From: Lampris incognitus | Lineage: Eukaryota > Chordata > Actinopteri > Lampriformes > Lampridae | Direction: 5' to 3' | Assembly (NCBI RefSeq): GCF_029633865.1 | Contig: NC_079219.1 | Span: 59,599,284-59,663,283 of the forward strand | DNA length: 64,000 nt | Shown: piece by piece, positions 16,154-53,128 of the stretch | Position numbering within the stretch: position 1 is the stretch's first letter | Layout: each line of letters opens with the position of its first letter | Notes under the pieces: model-generated | The model's database searches: none | Told to the model about the DNA's origin: nothing | Seen by the model: the letters and a program-made list of their open reading frames with translations, nothing else | Position numbers and translations under genes: made by a program

Positions 16154-24331
<8,178 letters not shown>

Positions 24332-27903: not shown

Positions 27904-30900
27904 ATGAGTGAGAACCGACAGCAGCCCGAGGTAGGACCCTCAGACACGGGGCAGAGGGAGCACTTGGTGGAGCGGGAGTCTGTTGTGCAGCTGTGTGACC
28001 ACGTTCACGCAGCAAGAGGGTAGATGTGGAACCAACAAGTCAGACTGTACGATCTGAACACTTGGTCTCTCAGATGTAGAATTGGAAATGAATTAGAGAG
28101 TTGGTTCCAGGTATGCTGCCAAGATGCAAGGGGACATTATTGTTAACTGACAGACATGCATTCAGACCGCTGTGCAGCAACAGACGTGTTGCAACAAGGG
28201 AGGCATTTTTTTAAACAGAACTTTGGTCACATCACCGTGGATACAACAACATCGTTTAAGCAGAAATGATGCATGCCTGATCTCAGGACATCAAACAGAA
28301 ACGGTACATTTGTGCACAAGTGCACGCTGGCCTTTACATGCAAACCATTCACGAGGGGAAATGTGCAAGAGGCTCGCTCAGGAGTGCTCCAGTTTAGTGC
28401 ACTCCTTCCTCTTTTGGTTAGGTCTTCCTAGATCAATGGTTCTCAATCAGGTCCAGTACTGCTGGTTTTCTGTCCTGCCACATAATGAATTACCTGTTGT
28501 TTCAGGTGTAAAACCTCCATGAAGTACTCGACACAATAGGTGAATGTAATTAAGTACCCGATAGAGTAGAAAACCGGCAGTACTTGTGGTATCTGAAGAC
28601 CTGATTGAGAACCACTGCCCAAATCATTACGTAAGTGAATTATCAGTGGCTGCCATACTCAAGGCCGTGAAAATGAAGCTCTTCTCCTTCCCTTTTAACA
28701 TAGCATTGAACCCTTCCATAGGAAATACCTCAAGAGATTTCCCCACACCATTCTGTTATGGTAGGGAGGGTTTCTCGGGTCCGGTTAAACTGGATTTTTA
28801 TTAAAATGAAATAGAATAGCTCTTTATATAGTTTTAATATATATTTATATATAGTTTATATATTATAGTTTGTGGTATTCATGGACCGGATCTCAAGGCA
28901 CAGCCAAGGTGAGGAGTGTGTCCGTTTTGGGAACCTCAGAATTGCATCTCTGCTCTTCTCAGATGATGTGGTTTTGTTGGCTTCATCAGATCGTGACCTC
29001 CAGTTCGCACTGGGGCGGTTTGCAGCCGAGTGTGAAATGGCCGGGATGAGAGTCAGCACCTCCAGGTCTGAGGCCATGGTTCTCTACCGGAAAATGGTGG
29101 GTTGCTCCCTCTGGGTTGGGGATGAGCTGTTGCCTCAAGTGAAGGAGTTCAAGTATCTCGGGGTCTTGTTCAGGAGTGAGGGTAGGATGGAGCAGGAGAT
29201 TGACAGGTGGATTGGTGCAGCATCAGCAGTAATGCGGATGCTGTACCGGATCGTTGTGGTGAAGAGGGAGCTGAGCCGGAAGGCAAAGCTCTCAATTTAC
29301 CAGTCAGTCTTGGTTCCACCCCTCACCTATGGTCACGAGCTTTGGGTAGTGACAGAAAGGGTGAGATCATGGATACAAGCGGCTGAATTGAGTTTCCTCC
29401 GTAGGGTGTCTGGGCCCACCCTTAGAGATAGGGTGAGGAGCTCAGACATCCGGAGGGAGCTCGGAGTAGAGTCACTGCTCCTTCATGTCGAAAGGAGCCA
29501 GTTGAGAGGGTTCAGGCATTTGATCAGGATGCCTCCTGGACACCTTCCTTTGGAGGTTTTCTGGGCACATCCAACTGGGAGGAGACCCCGGGGTAGACCC
29601 AGAACTCACTGGAGGGACTACATGTCCAGTCTGGCCCGGGAACGTCTTGGGATCCCCCAGGGGGAGCTGGAGGGTGTTGCTTAGCTTGCTGCCACCGTGA
29701 CCCGACCCCGGAGAAGTGGCTGATGATGAAATGAGATGGGATGAGATGGGATGGGATGGGATGGGAGAGAATAGCTGTGAAGTTCAGTGAACTGATATTC
29801 TAAGCAGATATGAAGTAACCTAGATCAACAGCCATGAAAAAAGTGTTTTGTTCTGATGTAATGTTGAGACGCTTCAATAATCTTCCTTTTGCTCACTGCC
29901 AGCCTCAGCCATCCCCCAAGTCATCATTACAGCCAGAATCTGAAAGAGGGTCTCGGCTCTCAAACTCCACCCACCTGCATCCCCAACTAGACACCCTCCA
30001 CCAGGCGCAAACCCCCCCCCACCTCCAGACACAGGTCCATGTCTTTACCCAACATGGGTCGGAACCCCCTGTACCACCCTGCTCCCCACCTCAGCCCCAG
30101 TCCGACCCCCAACACCAGCCCCAAACGTCGCCTGGCGAGGAGGCCAAGCCCCGATGGACAAGCCCCCGTAAACTTCTTATCCTCCTTCTCTTGGGCTCCT
30201 CCATCTGCGCCTCCATCCTGGGCCTGCTTTACTACAAGCAGCAGAATCGCCATTCGAAGAGCGTGCAGAGCGAACAGGCCGGAAAAGGTACGGCAGAAGA
30301 CCGACTCAACACAACCACAGGACCACAAATCATGACATAACTAATCCGTACCGCTGCTTTTCTGACTGACCTTTCTCCTCAATATTTCCTTCAGTCACTC
30401 CATGTCTCTCCCCTGCCTGTCTGAGGGCCTCAGCCCGTCTGTCCCTCTCTGTCGATCCCTTCACCCAGCCCTGTGACTACTTCTTGTTCACCTGTGGCTC
30501 CGACAGACCCTCGCCGGGCACCAGGGAGACACAAAGAGGCAGGGGCCTTCCTGGGGAGCCACAGAGCCGAGGGAGGAGAGGGACGCGGTCGGACAGAAGG
30601 AAGAGAGAAAGTGGTCCAGTCAGAGGTTTGAGTGACAGGGAAGCTACCCTGCTGCAGTATCTGAGGGAAATTTTGGGTGAGTATCCACTCAAACACTTCT
30701 TTGAAGAAGAAAAAAGTAAAAGAAAAAGAACTGACTGCCTAATTTCTTATGATTAAAGGCTGTTGCAAGCAGACATTCATTCCCAAGTGTGTGAATGTGG
30801 ACTCAGAGTTTCAGCAAGAGTTGCAATATTGTTTTTTCCGACTCAGATTTTTTTATTATGATTTTTTTCGAAGATTGTCTGGGTAGCGTAGGGGTCTATT

Positions 30901-32009
30901 CTGTTGCCTACCAACACAGGGATCGCCGGTTCGAATCCCCGTGTTACCTCTGTTTTTGTCAGGCGTCCCCACAGACACAATTGGCCGTGTCTGCAGGTGG
31001 GAAGCCAGATGTGCGTATGTGTCCTGGTCGCTGCACTAGCGCCTCCTCTGGTCGGTCGGGGCACCTATTCAGGGGGGAGGGGGAACTGGGGGGAGTAGCG
31101 TGATTCTCCCACGCGCTACGTCCCCCTGGTGAAACTCCTCACTGTCAGGTGAAAAGAAGCGGCTGGTGACTCCACATGTATGGGAGGAGGCCTGTGGTAG
31201 TCTGCAGCCCTCCTGGATCAGCAGAGGGGGTGGAGCAGAGACCGGGACGGCTCGGAAGGGTGGGGTAACAGGCCAAGTACAACTGGGGAGAACAGGAAAA
31301 ATCCAAAAAATAAATTACAGAACATTCAACACGTGCATGGACACACAAAAATATACACACAACGCTCCACCCAGTACAGAGGAGAGGAAGGATGCAGCAG
31401 TCACATCGTGGGTGCTGCGGTGGGGGTGTCGAGTATTAAAACACCGCTTATGCCACAGCACACACTGACGGAGGAGGCTGCCATGCAAGGCACCAACCTG
31501 CTCATCAGGAGCAGTTAGGAGTTCAGTGTTTTGCTCAAGGACACTTCGACACGCTGTCTGGAGGAGCCGGGGGTCAAACCAGCCACCTTCCATTTACTAG
31601 ACCACCCGCTCTGTCTCCTGAACCGTGCCGGCCCAAACGTGAACGAGTAATGGTGCAGTTCTGTAATACCGTAGCCCAAAGACGGGACCGGTATGAGGAA
31701 CAGTTCTTATCCCGGACCGGAATAAGTTGTTGGTCAATAATCAACAACCATGACATCGCCGGGTACGGTGTTAGTATCAAGAATAGCCCTGCAGCACCAC
31801 GCTTCACACGAGGGACTGTAATATAAGCGATTGAGAGTTAACAACGTTAACGACGCCGTGTTAACATGCTGGGTCGTTTTGCAGAATCGGAGCCGTCTGG
31901 CTCGGCAGGGCGGAAGGCCCGAGCTTTTTACCTCTCCTGTTTGGACACCAACTCCATAGAGGCTGCTGGAGAAGAACCGTTCCTCACACTCATCCAGAAG
32001 GTGAGAGGC

Positions 32010-32053
<44 letters not shown>

Positions 32054-35000
32054 CAGAGGTGTGGACTCGGCACATGACTTGGGCTCAAGTCAGAGTCGAG
32101 TCACAAATTTGATGACTTTAAGATTTGACTTGACAAAACCAAAAAAGACTTGCAGCTCGATTTAACTTTGGTACCAGTGATTCATGACTTCACAGTGGGT
32201 AGCATGGTCGCCTCACAGCGAGGAGGTCGTGGGTTCGAGCCCCGGGGTAGTCCAACCTCGGGGGTCGTCCTGTGTGTGGAGTTTGCATGTTCTCCCCGTG
32301 TCTGCGTGGGTTTCCTCCCACAGTCCAAAGACCTGCAGGTCAGGTGACCCAGGTGTGACTGTGTGGGCCCTGTAATGGCCTGGCGGCCTGCCCCGGGTGT
32401 TTCCCCGCCTGCCGGCCAGCGGCTGCTGGGATGCGCTCCAGCATCCCGACACCCTGATTCGGATAAGCCGTTCAGATAGTGGATGGGTGGACTGGAGCCT
32501 TTTGACTTGAAAGACTCGATACCTTCTGCAAGCCCAAAGATAAACTGCTTTTACAGATCGTGTGGCCGGTCCACTCTTCATTTCCATGATTATAGATCCG
32601 CTCTGAATCAAGCCGCGATGAATCCAAATGTTAAAAAGCATTCATGTGAATTTCATATACCATTTACTGTTGGGACATTTTGAAGCTACATTAAATCTGA
32701 TGGAGAGCAAATCACGACTTGTTTATGACTCAAGAATAAAAGTTGTGGACTTGAACTTGACTTGGGACTTGAGTGCCAAGACCTGATACTTACTTATGAC
32801 TTGGAAAACACAGACTTGGTCCCACATCAGTGATTCTCCTCCAGTGCCCATGCACCCTGTCCCCCCCCCCCTGTGTTGGTGACCCCTCTTGTCGATGTGT
32901 CGCGGTCCCCTGTCTGCAGCTGGGCGGCTGGGCGGTGTCTGGGCAGTGGAACAAGACCGACTTCAACTCCACGCTGAGCCTCCTCATGAGACAGTACTCC
33001 ACCTTCCCGTTCTTCAAGCTCTACGTCGGCCGGGATCCGAACGAGACGGCCCGTGGGCCCACGAGGAAATACATACAGGCCAGTATCACGGAAGAGGGCT
33101 TCAGTCCTGACCCGGGGACCCGGGGACCCGAGGACCCGGGGACCCGGCGCTGTGTGCTGGTTTGAATACAGGTGTTTCCTGACATGGCTTGAATTAGTCT
33201 CTTTGCCAACAGATCGATCAGCCGGACCTGTTGATCCCAATCGAGTGGAACAACAAGACACAGAAATCTCTATCTAACGCCCAGGTATACCAGTAAAAAC
33301 CCCTCTTTTTGATTGCCCCTGTACGCTGAACATGTCTGTTCTTTCTGGCTTGTGGCAGTGTGACTCTGCTCGACTCCCCCGTCCCACACCTCTTAACCCC
33401 CCTACGGCTGTTTTCAATATAGTTCTTTTAACAGGAACCGAACTCAGTGCAACATCAGCACAAGAACCCACTCCTCTTTGTGTTCACAATGTAAGTGGAC
33501 TCGGTTCTCTTTCTGGTCCACTTCAGCACAAATGAGATCTTAGACCACTTCTTGTTCATACCAAATCTGATTTGGAATAATTGATAATAATCCAGCCGCT
33601 ATCCAAACCGCTTATCCTGCTCTCAGGGTCCCGGGGATGGTGGACGCTATCCCAGCAGTCACTGGGCGGCAGGCAGGGAGACGTCCTGGACAGGCCGCCA
33701 GGCCGCCATCACAGGCCCACACACACACACACACACACCTAGGGGCAATGTAGTACGGCCGAGTCACCTGACCTGCGTGTGTTTGGACAGACACGGGGAG
33801 AACATGCAAACTCCACACAGAGGACGACCCGGGACGACCCCCAAGGCTCAAACCCGGGACCCCTCTGGCTGTGAGGCGACAGCACTAACCCCTGCGCCAC
33901 CGTGCCGCCCCAATTAATAATAATAATGGATTAATACAGCGCTTTATCTCGAAAGCGCCTCGCAGTGAAACACACCTCAGCCCCCACCAGTGTGTAGCAC
34001 CACCTGGGTGGTGCACGGCAGCCATGTTGCACCAGAACGCTCACCACACATCAGCTTGAGGTGGAGAGGGAGGACTCATTGAGCGAGTTGCACGGGGGAT
34101 GATGAGGTGGCCAGATGGAGAGAGCCAGGCTGGGAATGTTGCCGGGACACCGGGGACCCCCTACTCTTTGTGATAAGTACCATGGGATCTTTAATGACCA
34201 CAGGGAGTCGGGACCTCGGCTTAACGTCTCATCTGAAACATGGCATCGCCTACAGCACAGTGTCCCTGTCACAGCATGGGGATTGTCTTTGTTAGGACCA
34301 GAGGGCGGCACGGTGGTGCAGTGATTAGTGCTGTCACCTCACAGCAAGAAGGTCCTGGGTTTGAACCCCGGGGTAGTCCAACCTTGGGGTCATCCCAGGT
34401 CGTCCTCTGTGTGGAGTTTGCATGTTCTCCCCATGTCTGCAGTGGGTTTTCTCTGGGGGCTCCGGTTTCCTCCACCATCAGAAAGACATGCATGTTAGGG
34501 TTAATACTCCTGCCTGTGCCCCTGAGCAAGGCATGGCGAGACGTGCTGGAGCCGGTCCCCGGGCGCTGCCCACTGCTCCTAGCTACACAGCTGGGATGGG
34601 TTACATGCAGCGTGTAATTTCCCTACGGGGGTCATTAAAGTATATCATATCAGAGAGAAGACTGCCCCCTACTGGCCAACCAACACACATTGAGTTCTCC
34701 TTGGAGGTCTCCCATCCAAGCACTAGCCAAGCCCATACCTGCATAGCTGCCATCATTCGGCAAAGTCGGCATACATGTTGCTATGGCTGCCGGCAATTAT
34801 GCAGCACAACCCAACTAAGCGCCCCCTCCGCTACTTGTTAAGACACGACCTGTGTTCAGAAGCAGGGCACGTCATCCACAGTGGACGCCTGGACAGCAGC
34901 GGATGCTGCCACGGGCTTCCGGGGCGTCCTATCTGTCCACAGCTCTCCAGACCTCTGGTCCGCTGTCCTCCGCAGCCCGTCTCACGGCCAGCTGCTCCAC

Positions 35001-37325
35001 AGCTGTCCTTTTAGTGGCCCTCACTCCAGATGAGGGGCAACTTGGCAACTTCCCAGTAGTTTCATCCTCCGGCCAGACAATCCAGTGACCACCCGCAGAA
35101 GGACGCTTGTTTGTTGCTTCATTTTAGTTTACTTATTTATCAGGAGACGATTTTATGTAACAAAGCTGCAACACAATTTTAACATACATTTACATATTCT
35201 GGAACAGACTTTGTGTGGAAATCAAAAAATACATAAAAAATGAATGAGATAGGCGTCCGGGTGGCGTGGCGGTGTATTCTGTTGCCTACCAACACGGGGA
35301 TCGCTGGTTCGAATCCCCGTGTTGCCTCCAGCTTGGTCGGGCGTCCCTACAGACACAACTGGCCGTGTCTGCAGGTGGGAAGCTGGATGTGGGTATGTGT
35401 CCTGGTCGCTGCACTAGCGCCTCCTCTGGTCGGCTGGGACACCTGTTTGGGGGGGGAATAGCGTGATCCCCCCACGTGCTACGTCCCCCTGGTGAAACTC
35501 CTCACTGTCAGGTGAAAAGAAGCGGCTGGTGACTCCACATGTATGGGAGGAGGCATGTGGTAGTCTGCAGCCCTCCCTGGGTCAGCAGAGGGGGTGGAGC
35601 AGAGACCGGGACGGCTCAGAGGAGGGGGGTAGTGGGCCAGATACAGTTGAGGAGAAAAAGGGGTCAAACCCCCCCCCCAAAAAAAGGGAGGAGGGGGGGA
35701 GAAACAAATAAGCTAAAAAAGACAAATGAGAGCGACAGAACAGAAGCTGGACTGCAGGTCTCATACCTGTGTTGTGTGTGTGACGCTCGGTACACCTGTC
35801 AAAGCTCCCCCTGCTTGGTTCAAGCCAGCTGATCAATAATCAAATTCCCACTGAAAGAGGGAGGTGGTTGGTTTTCTTTCGCCCATTTACATTTATGGAT
35901 GTAGTGTTTGGCATAAATCACGAGGTTACTGTAAAAGGTCCTTGTGATTGGATTATCACCGTCAGAATGAAGTGAGACATTTCCCCCTCAGCTTAACTCC
36001 AGCACAGCCCTGAAGTCATGGTCACGGACCCGAGGCGGCACCGCCACACACAGCCAAAAGATAAATCAGTCACTGCTGCTTTCCCACTCTTTTCTTTGCC
36101 TCAATTTTTCCCCCCAATTGTATCCAGCCAATTACCCCCCTCTGCTGATCCGTCCCGGTCTCTGCTCCACCCCCTCTGCTGATCCGTCCCGGTCTCTGCT
36201 CCACCCCCTCTGCTGGTCCGGGGAGGGCTGCAGACTACCACATGTCTCCTCCCATACATGTGGAGTCACCAGCCGTTTCTTTTCACCTGACAGTGAGGAG
36301 TTTCACCAGGGGGACGTAGCGCGTGGGAGGATCACGCTATTCCCCCCCGACCAGGCAGCCCGACCGACCAGAGGAGGCGCTAGTGTAGCGGCCAGGACAC
36401 ATACCCACATCCGGCTTCCCACCCGCAGACACGGCCAGTTGTGTCTGTAGGGACGCCTGACCAAGCCGGAGGCAACACGGGGATTCGAACCGGCGGGCCC
36501 CGTGTTGGTAGACTGCCACGCACGCCACCCGGATGCCCTCTTCTTCACTGTAAATGCCAAACAGAGCTTTGTCATCAGCACAAAGTCTGCAGCCGCTGAT
36601 TTCTGTCTGTGTGGCGGAGCTGCAGCAAGCCGCGAGGGGGGAAACTGGGAATCCTTCGGGTTTAAAGGCAACGCGTAGCGCAGTGTAACCCTGAAACGAG
36701 CCTTACATGAACCCGGCTTCTGCATAAAACTGTCTGCTAAATGCTTAAATATCATCATAATGACTTATCACTACCCCCCCACCCCCCCCACACACCCCCC
36801 TCTCCTCCGTGTCTTTTCTTCCAGACCATACGTCCATTTCTGGCATCGTGTCAGAGGTACCTGAAGCTGCTCGGGGCGCCGTCTGCTAGCATCAGCATCC
36901 ACGTTGGCGGCTTCCTCTCTCTTTCCTCTGAGCTGGCTGTTGCTGCGGCCCCTCTGTCCTATCGCCTGCTGAGGGGCCAGCTCCACCAACGCATGACCAT
37001 CAAGGAGCTGCAGGTATGCATCTGGGTGGTGCGGCCGTCTATTCTGTTGCCTACCAACACGGGGCTCGCCGGTTCGAATCCCCATGTTGCCTCCGGCTTG
37101 GTCGGGCGTCCCTACAGACGCAATTGGCCGTGTCTGCGGGTGGGAAGCCGGATGTGGGTATGTGTCCTGGCCGCTACACTAGCGCCTCCTCTGGTTGGTT
37201 GGGGCGCCTGAGGGGGTGAAGCAGCGACCGGGACGGCTCGGTAGAGTGGGGTAATTGGCCGAGTACAGTTGGGGAGAAAAAGGGGCAAAATATCCCCAAA
37301 AAAAAGAGCTGCAGGTATTGTGGCT

Positions 37326-37382
<57 letters not shown>

Positions 37383-38129
37383 ACACACAGACACACACAC
37401 TCCGCTGCTGTAAATGTACAAATATTCCCCATGTCATCGTGTGCACAGGACCAGGCCCCTGTCATCGACTGGCTGGGCTCTCTGCAGGCCACTTTCCACC
37501 CTCACCCCGTCGGCCCAGAGGACCAGGTCCTCCTGCACAACCTCCCCTACATGGTGCAGATGTCACGCGTCATTGGCAAATGGCTGAACAACCACGAGCT
37601 GAGCAGCAGGTAGTGTAACGCGCCCCAACACAACGCACAATCCAGCGGCGCTCGACCCTTTCGCCGCATCCGAGTGCAACTAAACGCCGCCCCGCTCTTT
37701 TCCCCCCTCAGTGGTCCACTTCACACCTACATGGTCCTCAATCTACTGCACACCTTCATACCCGCGCTGGATTCCAGATTCGCCCAGACACAGAGGGACT
37801 TGTATGTGGCTCTGGGGGACACCGAGAGGGTAAAGGGGCATCTTTCACTGCTTCCAACACAATGGGTAAATTCTGTGGGTTCAGATGGTTTGAAAGTGTA
37901 TTGAGGCGGCACGGTGGAGTGGTGGTGGTTAGCACGGTGGCCTCACAGCAACAAGGTCCTGGGTTCGAGCCCCGGGGTAGTCCAACCTCAGGGGTCGTCC
38001 CGGGTCGTCCTCTGTGTGGAGTTTGCATGTTCTCCCTGTGTCTGCCTGGGTTTCCTCCGGGGGCTCTGGTTTCCTCCCACAGTCCAAAGACATGTAGGTC
38101 AGGTGACTCGGCCTTACTGAACTGTCCAT

Positions 38130-38202
<73 letters not shown>

Positions 38203-38334
38203 CGGGCCCTGTCTGGCGGCCTGACGGCCTGTCCAGGGTGTCTGCCTGGGTTTCCTCCGGGGGCTCTGGTTTCCTCCCACAGTCCAAAGACATGTAGGTC
38301 AGGTGACTCGGCCTTACTGAACTGTCCATAGTTT

Positions 38335-38366
<32 letters not shown>

Positions 38367-41300
38367 GGGGGGGCGGCCTGACGGCCTGTCCAGGGTGTCT
38401 GCCTGCCTGCTGCCCAGTGACTGGGGGGGTAGGCTCCAGCATCCCCGCGACCCAGAGGGCAGGATCAGCGGTTCCGATGACGGAGGGGTGGTGAGTGTAT
38501 TGATTTGCCATGATAGCGGTCGTTCACTGTGGGGCCGGGGGGTCTTCGGGTCTTCACCAGGTCCTACCTCGATGGATGCAATGTGTCTCCGAGACTGAAA
38601 GAGGATTTGACAAGGTTCTCAAGCACCTTCTCCGTGAGAAGAGCGCACACAGGGAGGAGGTGAGGTATTGGGCATGGAGGCCTCGGGCTGGAAGTGAATC
38701 CTTGAACTTGACAGTTAGCTCCGATGCTGAGGTGCAGTGATGTACATAGAGGACTTGTTCTGTTCAACAGGCCCAGGAGATGGTTCAGCGTGTCTTTTCC
38801 TCGTTGAAATCCAAGTTGGTTGATCTGAGGTGGAGGGATGAAAGTTCCCGCCAGCGGGTTATGAACAAGGTAAAACCTGAAAAAGTAAAACGCAGCAGAA
38901 CTGCTCAGCTTTCTGTCACAGGCTCTGCATTAGCAAAGTGGTGTTCACCCCCCATCTCCCTGCAGGTCCACGCTCTCACGCCCAGACTCTGGAGAGACAC
39001 CGAGATCCCAAGTGAGGCTGAACTCGACCAGCTTTACTCTGAGGTAGTGTGCCATCGCTGTACGTAGATGGTGGGCCTCCGATGTGTCATCGCCGGGGAT
39101 ACGACGGCAGATAAGAGCTCCCAAACCCATGGGGCTCACCCTTCTTTCTGCTTATGAAATAGTTGTCATCACCTGTCTGGAGCTGTCGTAAGGCTTCGTG
39201 ATGGCGAGCGGGATCATAACGCTCATACAGGACCGCTTTGAAAGTAGACACCATGTTTTCACTAGGAAAACTAAAGGATGGCAGGTGGAGGATGACAGGT
39301 GGTGAATGGCAGGTGGTGAGTGACAGGTGGTGAATGGCAGGTGGTGTGATGGTTCTGAGAATTTGTGTGATGGGTGGTGAGTGACAGGTGGTGGATGACA
39401 GGTGGTGTGATGGTTCTGAGAACTTGTGTGACGGGTGGTGAATGACAGGTGGTGAGTGACAGGTGGTGTGATGGTTCTGAGAACTTGTGTGGTGGGTGGT
39501 GAGTGACAGGTGGTGAATGACAGGTGGTGTGATGGTTCTGAGAACTTGTGTGATGGGTGGTGAGTGACAGGTGGTGAGTGACAGGTGGTGTGATGGTTCT
39601 GAGAACTTGTGTGATGGGTGGTGAGTGACAGGTGGTGAGTGACAGGTGGTGTGATGGTGCTGAGAACTTGTGTGATGGGTGGTGAGTGACAGGTGGTGAA
39701 TGGCAGGTGGTGAGATGGTTCTGAGAACTTGTGTGATGGGTGGTGAATGACAGGTGGTGAGTGACAGGTGGTGAATGGCAGGTGGTGAGTGACAGGTGGT
39801 GGATGACAGGTGGTGTGATGGTTCTGAGAACTTGTGTGATGGGTGGTGAATGACAGGTGGTGAATGGCAGGTGGTGAGTGACAGGTGGTGGATGACAGGT
39901 GGTGTGATGGTTCTGAGAACTTGTGTGGTGGGTGGTGAGTGACAGGTGGTGAGTGACAGGTGGTGGATGACAGGTGGTGTGATGGTTCTGAGAACTTGTG
40001 TGATGGGTGGTGAGTGACAGGTGGTGGATGACAGGTGGTGTGATGGCAGGTGGTGAGTGACAGGTGGTGTGATGGTTCTGAGAACTTGTGTGATGGGTGG
40101 TGAATGACAGGTGGTGAATGGCAGGTGGTGAGTGACAGGTGGTGGATGACAGGTGGTGTGATGGTTCTGAGAACTTGTGTGGTGGGTGGTGAGTGACAGG
40201 TGGTGAGTGACAGGTGGTGGATGACAGGTGGTGTGATGGTTCTGAGAACTTGTGTGATGGGTGGTGAGTGACAGGTGGTGAATGACAGGTGGTGAGTGAC
40301 AGGTGGTGAGTGACGGGTGGTGTGATGGTTCTGAGAACTTGTGTGATGGGTGGTGAGTGACAGGTGGTGAATGACAGGTGGTGAGTGACAGGTGGTGAGT
40401 GACAGGTGGTGTGATGGTTCTGAGAACTTGTGTGATGGATGGCTGCTTGTTTTATCCTCACCTGAACCGGAGCTCATAGTTTTCTCATGTTTCATTTACC
40501 ACTTAATTTATGGTTATTGCACATCCCAAAATGTAAATCTTCCAATTTTCCGGGGCGTCCAGGTGGCGTGGCGGTCTATTCCGTTGCCTACCAACACGAG
40601 GATCGCCGGTTCGAATCCCCGTGTTACCTCCGGCTTAGTCGGGCGTCCCTACACACACAATTGGCCGTGTCTGCGGGTGGGAAGCTGGATGTGGGTATGT
40701 GTCCTGGTCGCTGCACTAGCGCCCCCTCTGGTGGGTCGGGGCGCCTGTTCGGGGGGGAGGGGGAACTGGGGGGAATAGCGTGATCCTCCCACGTGCTACG
40801 TCCCCCTGGTGAAACTCCTCACTGTCAGGTGAAAAGAAGCGGCTGGTGACTCCACATGTATGGGAGGAGGCATGTGGTAGTCTGCAGCCCTCCCCGGCTC
40901 AGCTGAGGGGGTGGAGCAGAGACCGGGACGGCTCAGAGGAGTGGGGTAATTGGCCAATTACAATTTGGGAGAAAATGGGAGAAAAAAAATCCGAAAAAAA
41001 AAACCCCACTTCCTTTGTCAGCCTTCAGTTGTGGAAGAGGCAAGGGAGGATGTGCATGCACTTGGTCAGTTGCAGCAGTGCCGGTACCCGAGGAGCTGAA
41101 CGAATGTTGTGATCTGCCTGATTTTAGGCCAGAACCAGCACATGTGACTATTTCGCCAACTACATCCAACTACTGTCCCTGCAGCATAAGAGGCGCAACC
41201 AACAGTTCGGTGAGAAGGAGGAGGCCGACGTGTAAGTGCTCTTTGTTTTCTTGTTTGAATCGGGGGAAGGAGGTCTGTGGATGCCTTCGTTTCACACCGG

Positions 41301-44300
41301 GGGGCTTCAGCAAACACTGGTCAACAACCGGCCCTGCCGGCTGGCATCAGGGCACATATAAAGCCGTTGTAGCCTTGGCGGTGGTGCTGTGTAGCTGGTG
41401 CGGTGCTGTTCCCAGCCTGGACAACATGGCAGCAGACACTGCGTGAACCAATAAATCCTCTGCTGCATCTGAACAGGGACTCGTATCGTCAGCTAACGTA
41501 CTCGTACACTTTGCTGCTTTCTTTCAGTCTGTCCGTCAGGCCCTTCGTCCTGGGTAACGAGCTCATCATTCCCATGGGAATGTTTGTTCCTCCGCTCTTC
41601 CATCCGACCTATCCCAGGTAACCCACTTACAGAAGCCATCAGTAATAACCGATGATTCGCCTGAAGTTGCACCCCTTGGCATGGGACACTTCCTGTTTCT
41701 GTGTTATTCAACTTGGCATGTTCTGGGACACACGTGGGACCTCACAGGGTGGATGTCGGGGTTCCTGTGCAAAGCTGCAGCATCCGGACGTGTACAGAAA
41801 AAGAATTTGGAAAACTGAATCCTAAAGCTTAGAAATTGCAGAAAAGTTTGGAAAATGATGGAACTACATAGTTGGGCGGTGTCAGCACGCTGTACGGTCA
41901 CATCACATGTCTGCATGGTTTCAGACCTTAAGTCATCTCAGATACTGCAGTGTCTCTTATCATGAAGAGTAACTCTCTAGAGTAACACAACATGTTTACT
42001 GTCGACATAAATAACACCGAACACCCACCAGAACCCTCACATCTAGTGAGCAGACTTAAGACCCGGGGGAGGTGAATACAGAATATATCTGAGCTGCTGA
42101 AATAGGGCCCTGCGATGGCCAGGTGGCCTGTCCAGGGTGTCTCCCCGCCTGCCGCCCGGTGACTGCTGGGATAGGCTCCAGCACCCCTCGCCACCCCGAC
42201 TGGGGTAAGCAGCTTGGATAATGGATGGATGGATAGCATGGGACAGAGAATATTCAATGCTTGCTTTCTTTTTCTCTTTTTTTAAACAGGGCTATGAATT
42301 ATGGTGTTTTGGGCTTCCTGATTGCCAAAGATATCCTCCATCTTCTTCTGCCGGACAGTAAGCGAAGCAAACACAAGACATTCATCTAAATACCCTGCGT
42401 GGTGTAACTGTACAGAGATCATCGATCATTCAATTCAATTCAATTTATTGTCATTAAAACCAATGTGCAGGCACATGTTAAAAATGAAATGAGGGCTGTG
42501 GCTTCACCAAACAGTGCAAGACAGACACACACAAACACAGCAAACACAGTATAAGATATACACACATGAAGACCAAAAGCTAAAAATAACTTAAAAGAGC
42601 TGAAGTATAAAATATTTAAAAATATCTACAGACATTCAGTGGGTAGCCAGGTTCAGGTGGGCAACAGCTTGTGGAAAGAAGCTGTTTTTGAGCCTGGTAG
42701 TTCGGGCTCTGAGGCTCCTGTAGCGCCTCCCAGAGCACAGGGGGGAGAACAGTCCATGGTTGGGGTGGGTGGGATCTCTGCTGATGCTCAGACCCCTTCG
42801 AAGGCAGCGTTTGTGATAAATGTCTTTTATGGCTGGGAGCTGGGTACTGGTGATATGCTGGGCCACCTTGACGACCCGCTGCAGAGCTTTCTGGTCTACT
42901 GAGGTGCAGTTGCCGTACCACACTGAGATGCAGATGGTCAGGATGCTCTCTATGGTGCAGTGGTAGAAGTTGGTGAGAATTTTGGGGGGTAGACGGGCGC
43001 TCCTCAGCCTCCTCAGGAGATGCAGGTGTTGTTGGGCCTTTTTCACAAGGGCCTGGGTGTTTAATGTCCACGAAAGGTCCTCGCTGATGCGGACTCCAAG
43101 GAATTTAAAGCTGGAAACACGCTCCACTTCCACCCCATTGATGTGTATGGGGGAGTGGCTGCAAATTCTAGACCTCCTGAAGTCCACAGTCAGCTCCTTT
43201 GTCTTCTGCACATTAAGGACAAGATTATTGGTAGTACACCATGATGTGAGGTGCTGAATCTCGTCTCTGTAGGCCATCTTGTCATTGTTGGTGATACGGC
43301 CAATGACTGTGGTGTCATCTGCAAACTTAACTATAACATTTGAAGGGTGAGTTGGCAGGCAGTCATGGGTAAAGTGGGAGAAAAGGAGGGGGCTCCGAAC
43401 ACAGCCTTGAGGGGCACCTGTGCATATCTGCGATATGTTGAATATTGTGTTTTAATCCAGTCTCAGAATGTGCTGGGCCTCAGTATTGTGACCTCAGCGT
43501 TGAATATTGTGTTTTTATCCAGTCCCAGAACGTGCTGGGCCTCAGTGTTGTGACCTCAGTGTTGAATATTGTGTTTTTATCCAGTCCCAGAATGTGCTGG
43601 GCCTCAGTGTTGTGACCTCAGTGTTGAATATTGTGTTTTTATCCAGTCCCAGAATGTGCTGGGCCTCAGTATTGTGACCTCAGTGTTGAATATTGTGTTT
43701 TTATCCAGTCCCAGAAAGTGCTGGGCCTCAGTGTTGTGACCTCAGTGTTGAATATTGTGTTTTAATCCAGTCCCAGAATGTGCTGGGCCTCAGTGTTGTG
43801 ACCTCAGTGTTGAATATTGTGTTTTATCCAGTCCCAGAATGTGCTGGGCCTCAGTGTTGTGACCTCAGCGTTGAATATTGTGTTTTTATCCAGTCCCAGA
43901 ATGTGCTGGGCCTCAGTGTTGTGACCTCAGCGTTGAATATTGTGTTTTAATCCAGTCCCAGAATGTGCTGGGCCTCAGTGTTGTGACCTCAGTGTTGAAT
44001 ATTGTGTTTTATCCAGTCCCAGAATGTGCTGGGCCTCAGTGTTGTGACCTCAGTGTTGAATATTGTGTTTTTATCCAGTCCCAGAATGTGCTGGGCCTCA
44101 GTGTTGTGACCTCAGTGTTGAATATTGTGTTTTATCCAGTCCCAGAATGTGCTGGGCCTCAGTGTTGTGACCTCAGTGTTGAATATTGTGTTTTAATCCA
44201 GTCCCAGAATGTGCTGGGCCTCAGTATTGTGACCTCAGTGTTGAATACTGTGTTTTAATCCAGTCTCAGAATGTGCTGGGCCTCAGTGTTGTGACCTCAG

Positions 44301-45745
44301 TGTTGAATATTGTGTTTTAATCCAGTCCCAGAATGTGCTGGGCCTCAGTGTTGTGACCTCAGTGTTGAATATTGTGTTTTTATCCAGTCTCAGAATGTGC
44401 TGGGCCTCAGTGTTGTGACCTCAGTGTTGAATATTGTGTTTTTATCCAGTCTCAGAATGTGCTGGGCCTCAGTATTGTGACCTCAGTGTTGAATACTGTG
44501 TTTTAATCCAGTCTCAGAATGTGCTGGGCCTCAGTGTTGTGACCTCAGTGTTGAATATTATGTTTTTATCCAGTCTCAGAATGTGCTGGGCCTCAGTGTT
44601 GTGACCTCAGTGTTGAATATTGTGTTTTTATCCAGTCTCAGAATGTGCTGGGCCTCAGTGTTGTGACCTCAGTGTTGAAAATTGTGTTTTTATCCAGTCC
44701 CAGAATGTGCTGGGCCTCAGTGTTGTGACCTCAGTGTTGAATATTGTGTTTTTATCCAGTCCCAGAATGTGCTGGGCCTCAGTGTTGTGACCTCAGTGTT
44801 GAATACTGTGTTTTAATCCAGTCCCAGAAAGTGCTGGGCCTCAGTGTTGTGACCTCAGTGTTGAATATTGTGTTTTTATCCAGTCCCAGAATGTGCTGGG
44901 CCTCAGTGTTGTGACCTCAGTGTTGAATATTGTGTTTTATCCAGTCCCAGAATGTGCTGGGCCTCAGTGTTGTGACCTCAGTGTTGAATATTGTGTTTTT
45001 ATCCAGTCCCAGAACGTGCTGGGCCTCAGTGTTGTGACCTCAGTGTTGAATATTGTGTTTTTATCCAGTCTCAGAATGTGCTGGGCCTCAGTGTTGTGAC
45101 CTCAGTGTTGAATATTGTGTTTTTATCCAGTCCCAGAATGTGCTGGGCCTCAGTATTGTGACCTCAGTGTTGAAAATTGTGTTTTTATCCAGTCCCAGAA
45201 TGTGCTGGGCCTCAGTGTTGTGACCTCAGTGTTGAAAATTGTGTTTTTATCCAGTCCCAGAATGTGCTGGGCCTCAGTGTTGTGACCTCAGTGTTGTGAC
45301 CTCAGTGTTGTGACCTCAGTGTTGTGACCAGCCGCTCTCTGTTCTCCCAGTTCACAGGCAGAGTGAGGCGGTGCAGGCGGTGGGCGAGTGTGTATGGTCT
45401 CATTACCTCACTGTCGTAGAAAACCCAAGCAGAGATGGAGAACTGTCCCTCTCGGCTGCACAGCAGCAAGAGGTGTGGGTGCAGCACACTGCGCTGCAGG
45501 TGGCGCTACAGGTCAGTAATTGGGATTTCTGCACTTGTGTTTTTGATTTTACCCAGGGACAGAAAAGTGAATCTCGTGGTAATTTCTATTCCTCTGCCTC
45601 AGGCTTATCATCACAGTCTGAAGAGTAAGCCGGACGACGCCTCCCTCTCAGGACTGTCTCGTACTCACCTGCTCTTGTCTTCCTTTTCACAGGTATGTAT
45701 GTATGTATGTATGTATGTATGTATGTATGTATGTATGTATGTATG

Positions 45746-45776
<31 letters not shown>

Positions 45777-45980
45777 GTATGTATCATGTATGTAAGTATG
45801 TATGTATGTATGTATGTAAGTAAGTAAGTAAGTATGTATGTATGTAAGTATGTATGTATGTAAGTATGTAAGTATGTATGTATGTAAGTATGTATGTATG
45901 TAAGTATGTAAGTATGTATGTAAGTATGTATGTATGTATGTATGTAAGTATGTATGTATGTATGTAAGTATGTATGTATG

Positions 45981-46011
<31 letters not shown>

Positions 46012-47180
46012 GTATGTATGTATGTATGTATGTATGTAAGTATGTATGTATGTATGTATGTATGTAAGTATGTATGTAAGTATGTATGTATGTATGTATG
46101 TAAGTATGTATGTATGTATGTATGTAAGTATGTATGTAAGTATGTATGTATGTATGTATGTATGTATGTATGTATGTATGTATGTATGTATGTATGTATG
46201 TATGTATGCTATTTCAGCTCTTGTTAAGAATAACATGTATCCGGGCAGCGTAGCGGTCTATTCCGTTGCCTACCAACACAGGGGTCGCTGGTTCGAATCC
46301 CCGTGTTACCTCTGGCTTGGTGGGGTGTCCCTGCAGACACAATTTGTTGTGTCTGCAGGTGGGAAGCCGGACGTGGGTGTGTGTCCTGGTTGCTGCACTA
46401 GCACCTCCTCTGGTCAGTTGGGGCGCCAGTTTGGGGAGGAGGGGGGACTGGGGGGATAGCGTGATCCTCCCCCGCGCTGCGTCCCCCTGGTGAAACTCCT
46501 CACTGTCAGGTAAAAGAAGTGGCTGGTGACTCCACATGTATGGGAGGAGGCATGTGGTAGTCTGCAGCCCTCCTGGATCAGCAGAGGGGGTGGAGCAGAG
46601 ACCGGGACGGCTCGGGGGAGTGGGGTAATTGGCCGGGTACAATCCCCCAAAAATAATAACAATAATAACATGCATAGTGAACATCAGTGGAGGTTGCTGA
46701 GCGGTCCTGACCGACACCAGGTAAACTGGCTCCCAGGACTTCTGTGTACACATGTGCAGCGTCCCTGGATGATGCCTCCTCCCATACATGTGGAGTCACC
46801 AGCCGGAGGTAACTCGGGGATTCGAACCGGCGATCCCCGTGTCGGCAGGCAACGGTACAGACCGCCACGCCACCCGGACGCCCTTTTCGTCGTGGTCTTG
46901 ACGTTGCCTGACACGTCGTCCTTATGACACGTAACGAATGTGACCCGTAGCCACACGCGGGGGGAACCTCCACCTCCACCTCACCAGCTGCTGCCTTCCA
47001 CACCTCCACTCATCCGAGTTCCTTACCTTGCAGGTCAGCTGTGACACCGATCCGTATGACAAGTTCATGCCGTTCGAGCCCTCCTTCCTGGTTACGGTCA
47101 TCTGTGCTGAACCTGCGCTGTGTCCCACCACCATGACGTGTCCTACAGGAGCCCGGCAGCACCAGTTACACACATGCTGA
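27904..47180 (+). CDS. kel: Kell-like M13 (neprilysin family) type II membrane protein, predicted catalytically dead
   Basis: Exons: 27904-27930, 29903-30287, 30395-30676, 31885-32000, 32920-33078, 33213-33284, 36825-37013, 37449-37609, 37712-37829, 38561-38659, 38771-38869, 38966-39043, 41128-41231, 41528-41617, 42290-42357, 45351-45511, 45603-45692, 47034-47180. Phases join throughout, giving 814 codons (human KEL 732). Order: proline/glutamine-rich cytoplasmic tail, one membrane segment (KLLILLLLGSSICASILGLL, about residues 108-127), then the M13 ectodomain. KEL-like blocks include FYLSCLDTNSIEAAG, STFPFFKLYVG, APVIDWLGSLQATF, PRWMQCVSETE, FHPTYPRAMNYG and VALQAY. Human Kell cleaves big endothelin-3 and is bound to XK on red cells. 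Here the zinc motif HExxH reads KDILH (42327-42341) and the ENxxD motif reads EVWVQ, so peptidase activity is not expected. The intron after 33078 has a GC donor. Position next to zyx supports orthology. Confidence 0.9.
28433..28618. mobile_element. hAT-type MITE in kel intron 1
   Basis: A 186-bp element with terminal inverted repeats: caatggttctcaatcaggtc at the left and gacctgattgagaaccactg at the right. It has no coding capacity. The target duplication is not clear. Confidence 0.8.
28862..29768 (+). mobile_element. LINE, Rex3/RTE-like, 5'-truncated, in kel intron 1
   Basis: The plus strand has one long open frame (about 270 codons, 28872-29684) covering the C-terminal part of an RTE-clade reverse transcriptase. 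It shows the FSDDVVLLAS catalytic box, then EFKYLGVLFRSEG, YQSVLVPPLTYGHELW, RSSDIRRELGVESLLLHVER and GRRPRGRPRTHWRDY. It ends in tandem gatgg/gatga units at 29728-29766, the typical Rex3 tail. The frame is nearly intact over the retained part, so insertion was fairly recent. The endonuclease and N-terminal RT are missing. Confidence 0.9.
30873..31300 (+). mobile_element. SINE family A, full-length copy
   Basis: Head tctgggtagcgtaggggtct and B box ggttcgaatcc at about 30928. The tail ends near gggagaacagg. It lies in kel intron 3. Confidence 0.9.
31400..31640 (-). mobile_element. tRNA-derived SINE of a second type
   Basis: Read in reverse, the head contains an A/B-box arrangement around 31560-31625 (ggtttgacccccggctcct). 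It is followed by the phrase gtgtccttgagcaaaacact that is common in fish SINEs. It differs from family A and from the V-SINE. Confidence 0.6.
32011..32053. repeat. (GAT)n microsatellite
   Basis: About 14 gat units, 10 bases after the donor of the kel exon that ends at 32000. Confidence 0.95.
32054..32830. mobile_element. hAT-like non-autonomous element split by a V-SINE, in kel intron 4
   Basis: The ends match as inverted repeats: agaggtgtggactcgg near 32055 and, in reverse, gatgtgggaccaagtc near 32828. The interior repeats gacttgactt-type words, as in a common fish MITE. The V-SINE at 32188-32490 interrupts it. No protein coding is seen. Confidence 0.6.
32188..32490 (+). mobile_element. V-SINE, near full length
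   Basis: The tRNA-like head has B box gggttcgagccc at about 32230. The conserved V domain (tttgcatgttctccccgtgt and cacagtccaaagacctg) follows. The 3' end is tggatgggtgg. Confidence 0.9.
33589..33912 (-). mobile_element. V-SINE, full length, with short CA run
   Basis: Reverse orientation. The 3' tail end is at about 33589 and the head (gcggcacggtggcgc in reverse) is at 33912. An internal (CA)n lies at 33719-33738. It lies in the kel intron between 33284 and 36825. Confidence 0.9.
33925..34820 (-). mobile_element. 5S-rRNA-derived SINE3-like repeat, split by another SINE
   Basis: Read in reverse, about 34745-34705 (gatgggagacctccaagg) matches the internal promoter end of 5S rRNA. The body has cgttaagccgaggtcccgac and ccatggtacttatc words of a widespread fish SINE3-like repeat. 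The 3' end is near 33930. A V-SINE variant at 34305-34650 separates the two parts. Confidence 0.6.
34305..34650 (+). mobile_element. V-SINE variant with L2-type 3' end
   Basis: The head ggcggcacggtggtgcagtg, B box gggtttgaaccc and V domain are clear. The 3' half differs from the other V-SINEs: it has cctgagcaaggcatggcgag and ends tcattaaagtatatcatatc. It is inserted inside the 5S-derived repeat. Confidence 0.8.
35252..35695 (+). mobile_element. SINE family A, full-length copy
   Basis: Head gcgtccgggtggcgtggcgg at about 35252 and B box ggttcgaatcc at 35307. The tail is c-rich and a-rich. It lies in the kel intron between 33284 and 36825. Confidence 0.9.
36103..36537 (-). mobile_element. SINE family A with an internal tandem duplication
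   Basis: Reverse orientation. About 34 bp around ctgatccgtcccggtctctg occurs twice at 36142-36209. The head lies near 36490-36537. Same kel intron as the previous copy. Confidence 0.9.
37005..37318 (+). mobile_element. SINE family A inserted across a kel exon-intron border, with target duplication
   Basis: The element spans 37018-37305 and is flanked by the 13-bp direct repeat gagctgcaggtat (37005-37017 and 37306-37318). That repeat holds the last nine bases of the exon and the first four of the intron, so the insertion duplicated the 5' splice site. The copy lacks part of the body near the tail. The upstream donor (after 37013) keeps the frame. Confidence 0.92.
37328..37400. repeat. (CA)n microsatellite in kel intron
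   Basis: About 25 CA units, then interrupted acagacacac units, about 50 bases before the acceptor of the exon at 37449. Confidence 0.95.
37903..38490 (+). mobile_element. V-SINE with internal duplication and simple-repeat expansions
   Basis: Head cggcacggtggagtgg and B box gggttcgagccc are followed by the V domain. About 100 bp of the V domain and its flank occurs twice (38042-38140 and 38242-38340). The copies are separated by (GT)n at 38136-38200 and followed by (GT)n plus a G homopolymer of about 24 at 38350-38373. It lies in the kel intron between 37829 and 38561. Confidence 0.85.
39270..40445. repeat. Higher-order minisatellite in kel intron (1.2 kb)
   Basis: Short 11-12 bp units (gtgacaggtggt, gaatgacaggtg) are grouped into blocks, each ended by gtgatggttctgagaacttg. 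About 20 blocks are present. The long minus-strand open frames through it (HHTTCHSPPVTH type) are repeat by-products. It lies between exons 38966-39043 and 41128-41231. Confidence 0.95.
40551..41005 (+). mobile_element. SINE family A, full-length copy
   Basis: Head gcgtccaggtggcgtggcgg and B box ggttcgaatcc at about 40607. The tail is gggagaaaatgggagaaaaa. It lies about 120 bp before the kel exon at 41128. Confidence 0.9.
42105..42235 (+). mobile_element. V-SINE, 3' half
   Basis: ctgcgatggccaggtggcct and tgggataggctccagcaccc, then tggataatggatggatgg. The head is missing. It ends about 55 bp before the kel exon at 42290. Confidence 0.85.
42428..43440 (-). mobile_element. LINE, Rex1/CR1-like 3' end, in kel intron
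   Basis: Read in reverse: KFADDTTVIGRITNN (RT catalytic FADD box) near 43320, then YRDEIQHLTSWCTTNNL, INGVEVERVSSFKFLGV, TIESILTICISVWYGNC and CLRRGLSI. The last part after a frame change still reads PSGRRY-like blocks. The element ends in attgaattgaattgaat repeats at 42428-42446. It is 5'-truncated and its left border merges with the minisatellite that starts at 43441. Confidence 0.85.
43441..45330. repeat. 62-bp minisatellite in kel intron (about 30 copies)
   Basis: The unit of 61-62 bp contains tgtttttatccagtcccaga and atgtgctgggcctcagtgtt. The variants mostly sit in the t-run (ttttta, ttttaa, tttta) and at cag(t/c)ccc versus cagtctc. Short gacctcagtgttgt repeats end the array about 30 bases before the acceptor of the exon at 45351. 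Open frames across the array are by-products. Confidence 0.96.
45693..46209. repeat. (GTAT)n array starting at a kel splice donor
   Basis: About 515 bp of gtat units with scattered gtaa variants. The first unit is the donor itself: ttttcacag|gtatgtatgt after 45692. The purest run is at the 5' end, with interrupted runs in the middle. Confidence 0.97.
46233..46660 (+). mobile_element. SINE family A, full-length copy
   Basis: Head tccgggcagcgtagcggtct and B box ggttcgaatcc at about 46290. The tail ends in (aat)n. It directly follows the GTAT array in the last kel intron. Confidence 0.9.
46773..46884 (-). mobile_element. SINE family A, internally deleted fragment
   Basis: A body piece (cctcccatacatgtggagtc) is fused directly to the reverse-oriented head (ggattcgaaccggcgatccc ... 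ccacccggacgccc). About 250 bp between them is gone. Confidence 0.8.
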
Positions 47181-48042: not shown

Positions 48043-49470
48043 AACACACATACCCACACTAACACACATACCCACACTAACACACATACCCACACTAACA
48101 CACATACCCACACTAACACACATACCCACACTAACACACATACCCACACTGACACACATATCCACACTAACACACATACCCACACTAACACACATACCCA
48201 CACTAACACACATACCCACACTAACACACATATCCAGACTAACACACATATCCACACTAACACACATATCCACACTAACACACATATCCAGACTAACACA
48301 CATACCCACACTAACACACATATCCACACTAACACACATATCCAGACTAACACACATATCCAGACTAACACACATATCCAGACTAACACACATACCCACA
48401 CTAACACACATACCCACACTAACACACATACCCACACTGACACACATACCCACACTGACACACATACCCACACTAACATACATACCCACACTAACGAACA
48501 TACCCACACTAACACACATACCCACACTAACACACATATCCAGACTAACACACATACCCACACTAACACACATACCCACACTAACACACATATCCACACT
48601 AACACACATATCCACACTAACATACATACCCACACTAACATACATACCCACACTAACACACATATCCACACTAACACACATACCCACACTAACACACATA
48701 TCCAGACTAACACACATATCCACACTAACACACATATCCAGACTAACACACATACCCACACTAACACACATACCCACACTAACACACATACCCACACTAA
48801 CACACATATCCAGACTAACACACATACCCACACTAACACACATACCCACACTAACACACATACCCACACTAACACACATATCCAGACTAACACACATACC
48901 CACACTAACACACATATCCAGACTAACACACATATCCACACTAGCACACATACCCACACTAACACACATATCCAGACTAACACACATACCCACACTAACA
49001 CACATATCCAGACTAACACACATACCCAAACTAACACACATATCCAGACTAACACACATATCCAGACTAACACACATATCCAGACTAACACACATATCCA
49101 CACTAACACACATATCCACACTAACACACATACCCACACTAACACACATACCCACACTAACACACATACCCATACTAACACACATACCCACACTAACACA
49201 CATATCCACACTAACACACATACCCACACTAACACACACACCCACACTAACACACATACCCACACTAACACACATACCCACACTAACACACATACCCACA
49301 CTAACACACATATCCACACTAACACACATATCCAGACTAACACACATACCCACACTAACACACATACCCACACTAACACACATACCCACACTAACACACA
49401 CACCCACACTAACACACATACCCACACTAACACACATACCCACACTAACACACACACCCAAACTAAACAA
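48043..49470. repeat. 18-bp minisatellite, about 79 copies
   Basis: Unit aacacacatacccacact with common variants cc/tc at bases 10-11 and ca/ga near the end. Because 18 is a multiple of three, two minus-strand frames stay open for nearly 500 codons (MCVSVG and VCVLVW repeats). These are by-products. Confidence 0.97.
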
Positions 49471-51539: not shown

Positions 51540-53128
51540 GTTCTTCATGTATTGGGGGGGTTCTTCATGTATTGGGGGGTTCTTCATGTATGGGGGGTTC
51601 TTCATGTATTGGGGGGGTTCTTCATGTATTGGGGGGTTCTTCATGTATGGGGGGTTCTTCATGTATTGGGGGGTTTCTTCATGTACTGGGGGGTTCTTCA
51701 TGTATTGGGGGGTTCTTCATGTATTGGGGGGGTTCTTCATGTATTGGGGGGGTCTTCATGTATTGGGGGGTTCTTCATGTATTGGGGGGGTTCTTCATGT
51801 ATTGGGGGGTTTCTTCATGTACTGGGGGGTTCTTCATGTATTGGGGGGGTTCTTCATGTATTGGAGGGGTTCTTCATGTATTGGGGGGTTTCTTCATGTA
51901 CTGGGGGGTTCTTCATGTACTGGGGGGTTCTTCATGTATTGGGGGGGTTCTTCATGTATGGGGGGTTCTTCATGTACTGGGGGGTTCTTCATGTATTGGG
52001 GGGTTTCTTCATGTACTGGGGGGTTCTTCATGTACTGGGGGGTTCTTCATGTATTGGGGGGTTCTTCATGTATGGGGGGTTCTTCATGTACTGGGGGGTT
52101 CTTCATGTATTGGGGGTTTCTTCATGTACTGGGGGGTTCTTCATGTACTGGGGGGTTCTTCATGTATTGGGGGGGTTCTTCATGTATGGGGGGTTCTTCA
52201 TGTACTGGGGGGTTCTTCATGTATGGGGGGGTTTCTTCATGTACTGGGGGGTTCTTCATGTACTGGGGGGTTCTTCATGTATTGGGGGGTTCTTCATGTA
52301 TGGGGGGTTCTTCATGTACTGGGGGGTTCTTCATGTATTGGGGAGGTTCTTCATGTATGGGGGGTTCTTCATGTACTGGGGGGTTCTTCATGTATTGGGG
52401 AGGTTCTTCATGTATTGGGGGGTTTCTTCATGTACTGGGGGGTTCTTCATGTATTGGGGGGGTTCTTCATGTATGGGGGGTTCTTCATGTACTGGGGGGT
52501 TCTTCATGTATTGGGGGGGTTCTTCATGTATTGGGGGGTTTCTTCATGTATGGGGGGTTCTTCATGTATTGGGGGGGTTCTTCATGTATTCGGGGGGTTC
52601 TTCATGTATTGGGGGGTGTTCTTCATGTATGGGGGTTCTTCATGTATTGGGGGGTTCTTCATGTATTTGGGGGGTTCTTCATGTATGGGGGGTTCTTCAT
52701 GTATTGGGGGGTTCTTCATGTATTGGGGGTGTTCTTCATGTATGGGGGGGTGTTCTTCATGTATGGGGGTGTTCTTCATGTATTGGGGGTGTTCTTCATG
52801 TATTGGGGGGGTTCTTCATGTATTGGGGGGTTCTTCATGTATTGGGGGGGTTCTTCATGTATGGGGGGGTTCTTCATGTATTGGGGGGGTTCTTCATGTA
52901 TTGGGGGGGTCTTCATGTATTGGGAGGGTTCTTCATGTATTGGGGGGTTCTTCATGTATTTGGGGGGGTTCTTCATGTATTGGGGGGGTTCTTCATGTAT
53001 TGGGGGGGTTCTTCATGTATTGGGGGGTTCTTCATGTATTGGGGGGGTTCTTCGTGTATTGGGGGGTTCTTCGTGTATTGGAGGGGTTCTTCGTGTATTG
53101 GAGGGGTTCTTCATGTATTGGGGGGGGG
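51540..53128. repeat. G-run minisatellite, about 85 copies of a 17-20 bp unit
   Basis: Unit ttcttcatgtattgggggg with variants in the g-run length (5-7) and atg/act. The unit holds no stop codon in any plus frame, so all three plus frames stay open for about 570 codons. These are by-products. Regular G5-G7 runs on the plus strand could fold as G-quadruplexes. Confidence 0.97.

Follow-up and report, generated by a model that had tools for sequence, protein, structure and literature searches.

The kel gene of the opah Lampris incognitus probably encodes a conserved pseudo-peptidase

A 64,000-nucleotide stretch of the opah Lampris incognitus genome (assembly GCF_029633865.1, contig NC_079219.1, positions 59,599,284 to 59,663,283 of the forward strand), here called the window and numbered from its first letter, was analysed with a focus on kel, the gene of the Kell blood group glycoprotein. 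Two roles have been described for Kell, that of an enzyme making endothelin-3 and that of the partner of XK. Judged from sequence comparisons, opah kel is very probably an orthologue of mammalian KEL whose product is a conserved pseudo-peptidase. Fish Kell would be unable to hold zinc or to cut peptides in the manner of the M13 family, the catalytic loss would trace back to an early ray-finned ancestor, and the ectodomain would have been kept by selection as a non-catalytic module for binding or scaffolding on the cell surface.

Loss of the catalytic residues

The opah gene was modelled with 18 exons on the + strand (27904-47180), encoding 814 amino acids with zero internal stops. The product consists of a Pro/Gln-rich cytosolic tail, a single transmembrane helix and an M13 ectodomain, with Pfam matches to Peptidase_M13_N (181.7 bits, cut-off 32, 3.9e-53) and, in the C-terminal part (C-part), to Peptidase_M13 (37.9 bits, cut-off 24.5, 1.9e-9). 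The predicted fold of fish Kell is M13-like and resembles ECE-1 and neprilysin; no Kell-named chain was present among the 12 PDB sequences matched at E 0.001. The segments that bear on catalysis are the following:

41528..41617, + strand: exon 14, VNAYY region replaced by LSVRPFVLG
42290..42357, + strand: exon 15, former zinc helix; AG acceptor, GT donor
42327..42341, + strand: KDILH replacing HExxH (K673, D674, H677), from the gene model and alignments
45351..45511, + strand: exon 16, former ENxxD block
45470..45484, + strand: EVWVQ replacing ENAAD (E723 to Q727), from the gene model and alignments
47034..47180, + strand: exon 18, catalytic His/Arg loop shortened away and CxxW end turned into a Cys-rich tail (C790, C796, C802, C814); stop 47178-47180

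The active site of human Kell comprises His581, Glu582, His585, Glu634 and Asp638 (PMC11669894). Exon 15 reads (R)AMNYGVLGFLIAKDILHLLLPD in coding phase, with the codons AAA (42327-42329) for K, GAT (42330-42332) for D and CAT (42339-42341) for H at the former HExxH. Exon 16 in coding phase contains AAQQQEVWVQHTALQ, and its longer reading around the former ENxxD is QQQEVWVQHTALQ. When aligned with human KEL (P0215), the opah protein has K at H581, D at E582 and H at H585, while E634 is kept, N635 is V and D638 is Q. A sequence-only reading of the window had proposed that the first zinc histidine was now K and the catalytic glutamate D with the second histidine kept, that ENAAD had become EVWVQ with loss of N and D and retention of the ligand glutamate, and that the frame was intact over 18 exons; codons, exon 16, the human alignment and the frame without internal stops bear this out. 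The same alignment revealed the loss of VNAYY, of the catalytic His/Arg loop HSPPxLRVHGPL and of the C-terminal CxxW in the opah, and opah Kell ends in a tail with four near-invariant cysteines where the loop and CxxW stood. Of the signatures of an active M13 enzyme, HExxH, ExxxD, VNA(F/Y)Y and the His/Arg loop, opah Kell has none.

An alternative exon supplying HExxH was considered and rejected: a scan of the + strand from 27000 to 48000 for H[E/D]xxH gave a single match, at 33060, which lies out of frame within exon 5. A sequencing error at 42327-42341 was rejected as very unlikely because the first-ligand His is absent from 184/184 informative fish rows of the alignment described below. The HExxH that the fragment row P0194 does hold belongs to a stretch without coverage of the site.

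Distribution of the loss among ray-finned fishes

Protein searches returned overlapping sets of 120 (the best 120 of 239 matches), 87 and 98 rows. The window protein and the returned proteins were aligned, leaving out P0001, P0193, P0195 and P0198. The Nematolebias records P0193/P0195, a kel-named protein with a linker-histone domain and an NMDA receptor 2D-named protein with kel-like sequence, are probably misjoined gene models. The fish rows numbered 198, counting the window protein itself, isoforms and rows assigned to fish by similarity, and the mammal rows 80, with P0269 uncounted. Sampling thus covered mammals and ray-finned fishes; bichir, coelacanth, lungfish, amphibians, reptiles, birds and sharks did not turn up in these searches, to which limits of length and number of rows applied, and this does not imply absence.

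At the first zinc ligand, the 198 fish rows have K (177), R (4), N (3) or a gap (14), and His in 0/184 informative rows. The catalytic Glu column holds D in 170 rows, E in 8, N in 3, G in 2, A in 1 and a gap in 14, and the second His column H in 177, R in 3, Q in 3, Y in 1, K in 1 and a gap in 13. The loss of the first zinc His is common to the teleosts sampled, and it extends to gar, bowfin, sturgeon and paddlefish; since these also lack the site, the loss would be older than the teleosts.

By lineage, the site reads AKGILH in gar, ARGAMH in bowfin, ANEFLQ in sturgeon and paddlefish, AKNILH in two bony-tongues, AKEILH in tarpon and AKD(I/L)LH in most clupeocephalan rows. In the alignment, gar, bowfin and teleosts have neither VNAYY nor the catalytic His/Arg loop. 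An intermediate state is suggested by sturgeon and paddlefish, which retain a CxLW end, the first two residues (VN) of VNAYY and a C-terminal loop of greater length; this loop has lost its Arg, and its His, absent in sturgeon (LVRDPHGQV), is perhaps kept in paddlefish (SVHQPHGQV). Their state suggests stepwise decay after an early loss.

Some observations weigh against the pseudo-peptidase reading with its early loss. The catalytic Glu column still has E in six eel-/tarpon-group rows and in both sturgeon-group rows (KEILH, NEFLQ), and the second His and the ligand Glu are still there in most of the 140 non-redundant fish rows defined below. With sturgeons having N and Q at the two His columns, the zinc site may have been lost in steps or in parallel.

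In the phylogenetic tree, the Kell rows formed one clade (100/99) and the fish rows one clade within it (99/93), apart from ECE-1 and NEP. It was built with partial outgroup sequences and with mammals and ray-finned fishes only, and the program warned of long branches meeting. Opah Kell shares with mammalian KEL (Kell, CD238) this clade, the IQIDQP and AP.IDWL blocks, one transmembrane helix and the M13 fold, whereas human HELLH, ENAAD, VNAYY, HSPPxLRVHG, CxxW and the Cys72 for XK are all six missing from it. Endothelin-converting enzyme 1, unlike opah Kell, has the zinc site HELTH and falls outside the Kell clade. The Kell of bowfin (P0223), paddlefish (P0262), sturgeon (P0263), croaker (P0106) and puffer (P0168) is named endothelin-converting enzyme 1 or 2 in the database. 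A plain ECE1/ECE2 identity was rejected, as bowfin and sturgeon stand within Kell in the tree and the other ECE-named records were matched as Kell.

Conservation, selection and transcripts

For conservation statistics, fish rows with more than 150 aligned C-part residues were thinned at 93% identity to 140 rows. The coverage filter removed 24/198 fish rows, sturgeon and paddlefish among them, and P0002, the opah protein of NCBI, was excluded as a duplicate of the window protein. K673 was found in 135/140, D674 in 129/140, H677 in 136/140 and E723 in 138/140 of these rows, with W725 in 137/139 and Q727 in 133/138. Of seventeen blocks, residues 640-674 were the best conserved (mean entropy 0.82), and conservation of the C-part was on a par with that of the N-terminal part (N-part), with mean entropies of 1.18 vs 1.22. 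Among 60 sampled fish rows, pairwise identity averaged 0.623 for the N-part and 0.633 for the C-part.

A substitution-only neutral simulation was run on the opah coding sequence, where open frames persisted in 1/200 runs at 0.90 amino acid identity and in 0/200 at ≤0.81. The 119 non-opah rows from the best 120 of 239 matches are 57 to 71% identical to the window kel. Conservation and the neutral simulation, rather than an estimate of the ratio of nonsynonymous to synonymous substitution rates (dN/dS), provide strong evidence for purifying selection on fish kel.

Nine fish rows labelled 'lgn' (P0017, P0036, P0050, P0089, P0105, P0122, P0131, P0138 and P0142) come from contigs 2,018 to 2,744 bases long and carry AKDI(L/V)H and QQQEVW. 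Five of them (P0017, P0036, P0050, P0089 and P0138) encode 726 to 793 residues, leaving at most about 530 contig bases over, and must be spliced transcripts because there is no room for the 17 introns of kel; the opah is not known to be among the fish species from which these transcript-like contigs come. The site has the same reading in P0185, a tenth lgn row of 335 residues; P0194, P0196 and P0197 do not cover it.

The earlier proposal of a retained gene for a pseudo-peptidase, and not a pseudogene, is thus supported by the open frame, by the conserved former zinc site across fishes and by the transcript-like contigs. A pseudogene was rejected on account of the open 18-exon frame, the conserved former site and the early closing of frames in the neutral simulation.

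Broken sites in mammalian Kell

The mammal sample comprised 47 of the 80 rows, one per species, with two Macaca (HELLH) omitted. Seventeen of the 47 species rows, mostly bats and rodents, were without at least one of H581, E582, H585, E634 and D638. Broken bat sites were RELLH (two Myotis, Eptesicus, Pipistrellus, Pteronotus and Pteropus), LELLR (Rhinolophus) and HKLLH (Hipposideros). Those of rodents were HKLLN (Dipodomys), HKLLH (Peromyscus maniculatus and a further rodent), HELLR (Onychomys, Phodopus and Acomys) and QWLLH (Jaculus), and the remainder were HELLR in aardvark and RELSQ in Otolemur. The site was broken in 8/9 bat rows and 5/8 muroid rows, with close relatives intact, and the tree requires at least 8 changes, or about 12 (counted by eye) if the site was never regained. 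An Aotus row (P0270) reads HKLLH, yet P0222 and P0271 of the same species read HELLH, and P0270 was not counted.

Among the 17 broken rows, mean pairwise identity fell from 0.756 in the N-part to 0.740 in the C-part, and among the 30 intact rows it rose from 0.787 to 0.802. The C-part may have loosened somewhat after site loss in mammals, in a comparison between sets that differ in species.

Rat Kell has been reported with a lysine at the catalytic Glu and a serine at the ligand Glu (PMC2259306), and is likewise a published Kell without catalytic residues, unlike the present case in concerning one species and two residues. The authors of that article found no Fugu Kell and proposed that only mammals have Kell. 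A paper cited in PMC11669894 describes, in its title, the K1 form of human Kell as inactive.

Possible roles of the retained protein and alternative explanations

Peptidase activity may not be why Kell is maintained. Its conserved role in vertebrates could be non-enzymatic, the zinc site having been lost near the ray-finned base and then many times in placental mammals with the ectodomain kept, and the former active site of fishes could be re-used as a new conserved K/D/H/E/W/Q surface; we put this general proposition a little short of an even chance. The two likeliest modes are non-covalent partnering with an XK-family scramblase and a peptide held uncut in the dead cleft.

The first is a tentative candidate, in which the transmembrane helix and ectodomain would bind and stabilise an XK-type scramblase, non-covalently in teleosts. 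Mammalian Kell is linked to XK by a disulphide between Kell Cys72 and XK Cys347 (PMC11371627), and XK acts as a scramblase together with VPS13A (PMC9436381). In an alignment-based count, with rows without the conserved Cys77 set aside (2 mammal, 20 fish), a cysteine at most 13 residues before Cys77 was present in 75/78 mammal rows vs 9/178 fish rows (absent in 3/78 vs 169/178). The nine fish carriers of this juxtamembrane cysteine include gar, bowfin and paddlefish, which favours an XK-type partner; the opah is without it. Because it is absent in 169/178 fish rows, most sampled teleosts cannot make the covalent bond as mammals do. The XK-linking cysteine is a trait of mammalian Kell and its absence is not a test of descent. 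The suggestion, also made from the opah sequence, that the protein might partner a transporter-like protein as Kell partners XK is weakened by this count as far as the covalent link goes, and a non-covalent bond is possible.

Alternatively, the cavity between the lobes may bind a peptide such as an endothelin precursor, and carry, buffer or present it. This is rather unlikely taken by itself; the M13 fold is predicted to be intact, the residues at the former site are strongly conserved and human Kell processes big endothelin to endothelin-3 (PMC11669894), but the substrate-binding motif VNAYY is lost.

It is improbable that the fish gene is an ancient duplicate and not the KEL orthologue, so that the human comparison would overstate the loss. 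The sample of mammals and ray-finned fishes and the warning of long branches meeting leave some room for such hidden paralogy, against which stand the well-supported Kell and fish clades; a paralogous origin would still make it a dead M13 protein.

Persistence of catalysis by rebuilt chemistry, with K/D/H/E as a new site or with another metal, is highly improbable. Near-invariance of the K, H and E columns and the persistence of one His and one Glu ligand speak for such a site, but other lineages have E, N, G or A in place of D674 and both VNAYY and the His/Arg loop are gone from gar, bowfin and teleosts. Decay under relaxed selection, with kel a pseudogene in the making, is scarcely credible: several motif positions do vary among fish groups and the site is a gap in 14/198 rows, gene-model fragments among them, but frames stay open at the identities found among the best 120 of 239 matches, where simulated neutral change closes them early, and the former zinc helix lies within the most conserved block.

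Relation to known inactive M13 proteins and significance

Inactive M13 proteins are already known as a kind from insects and from rat Kell. The Drosophila Nepl expansions are similar in that proteins missing key residues are reported to be expressed (PMC2259306, PMC7822871 and PMC8223033), and differ in being expansions of many genes, whereas fish Kell is the counterpart of a single vertebrate enzyme. Two points appear to be new: the retention of Kell as a dead peptidase in the ray-finned fishes sampled, and its repeated breakage in placental mammals. A literature search on fish Kell, teleost kel and Kell pseudo-proteases, covering a small part of the matching papers, with subscription journals outside it, found neither the zinc-site loss of fishes nor the repeated loss in mammals.

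Ray-finned fishes, with the protein kept and the enzyme apparently dismantled, would constitute a natural experiment separating the two roles of Kell; in mammals, the recurrent breakage seen in bats and rodents is in line with this. This gives a direct route to asking what Kell is for, by kel knockouts in zebrafish or medaka, and calls for caution against naming fish kel a metallo-endopeptidase.

Gene structure, neighbourhood and repeats

The remaining exons of the gene model, and the exons of a gene upstream of kel, are located as follows:

27904..27930, + strand: exon 1 (coding part), start codon 27904; first nine residues as in NCBI protein P0002
29903..30287, + strand: exon 2, cytosolic Pro/Gln-rich tail and transmembrane helix (~30173-30235); the helix is 33-62 of the P0002 structure model
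30395..30676, + strand: exon 3, first ectodomain cysteines (PCLSPAC), without a Cys72-like XK-linking cysteine ahead of them
31885..32000, + strand: exon 4; the Pfam M13_N match starts at residue 223, close to the exon 3/4 border
32920..33078, + strand: exon 5, non-canonical GC donor at 33079; protein over the junction as in P0002
33213..33284, + strand: exon 6, IDQPDLLIP
36825..37013, + strand: exon 7, gene model
37449..37609, + strand: exon 8, gene model
37712..37829, + strand: exon 9, gene model
38561..38659, + strand: exon 10, gene model
38771..38869, + strand: exon 11, gene model
38966..39043, + strand: exon 12, 3' junction uncertain by 2 residues
41128..41231, + strand: exon 13, gene model
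45603..45692, + strand: exon 17, gene model
23720..24222 (perhaps from 16073), + strand: LIM-domain gene exons upstream of kel; Pfam LIM 1.4e-13 (23720-23956) and 4.3e-4, just under the cut-off (23914-24222)

The best match to the window kel in the protein collection was the Lampris incognitus kell blood group glycoprotein (99% identity over the queried part). P0002 differs from the 18-exon model at the 5' part of exon 2, which is missing from the NCBI model, at the exon 2/3 junction (few residues) and at the exon 12/13 junction (2 residues). Every intron ends in an AG acceptor and, with one exception, starts with a GT donor; the exception is the GC after exon 5, a donor (33079) likewise implied by the NCBI protein. 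The upstream LIM-domain gene is presumably zyxin-like, and it would fit the human KEL/ZYX neighbourhood.

Most of the intron ahead of exon 16 is filled by a minisatellite of 62 base pairs (bp) in about 30 copies (43436-45296). Its consensus includes the acceptor-like sequence TTTTTATCCAG, so exon 16 would follow an array of possible decoy 3' splice sites. Large tandem arrays were also found in or downstream of kel at 39312-40411, 45693-46208, 48043-49466, 51540-53125 and 53727-55756, with units of 61 to 183 bp, GTAT x129, and 18-, 19- and 21-bp units. Retrotransposon remnants lie on the - strand at 2816-3232 and 62740-63408, with an RVT_1 match below the cut-off and a zf-RVT match at 8.2e-7.

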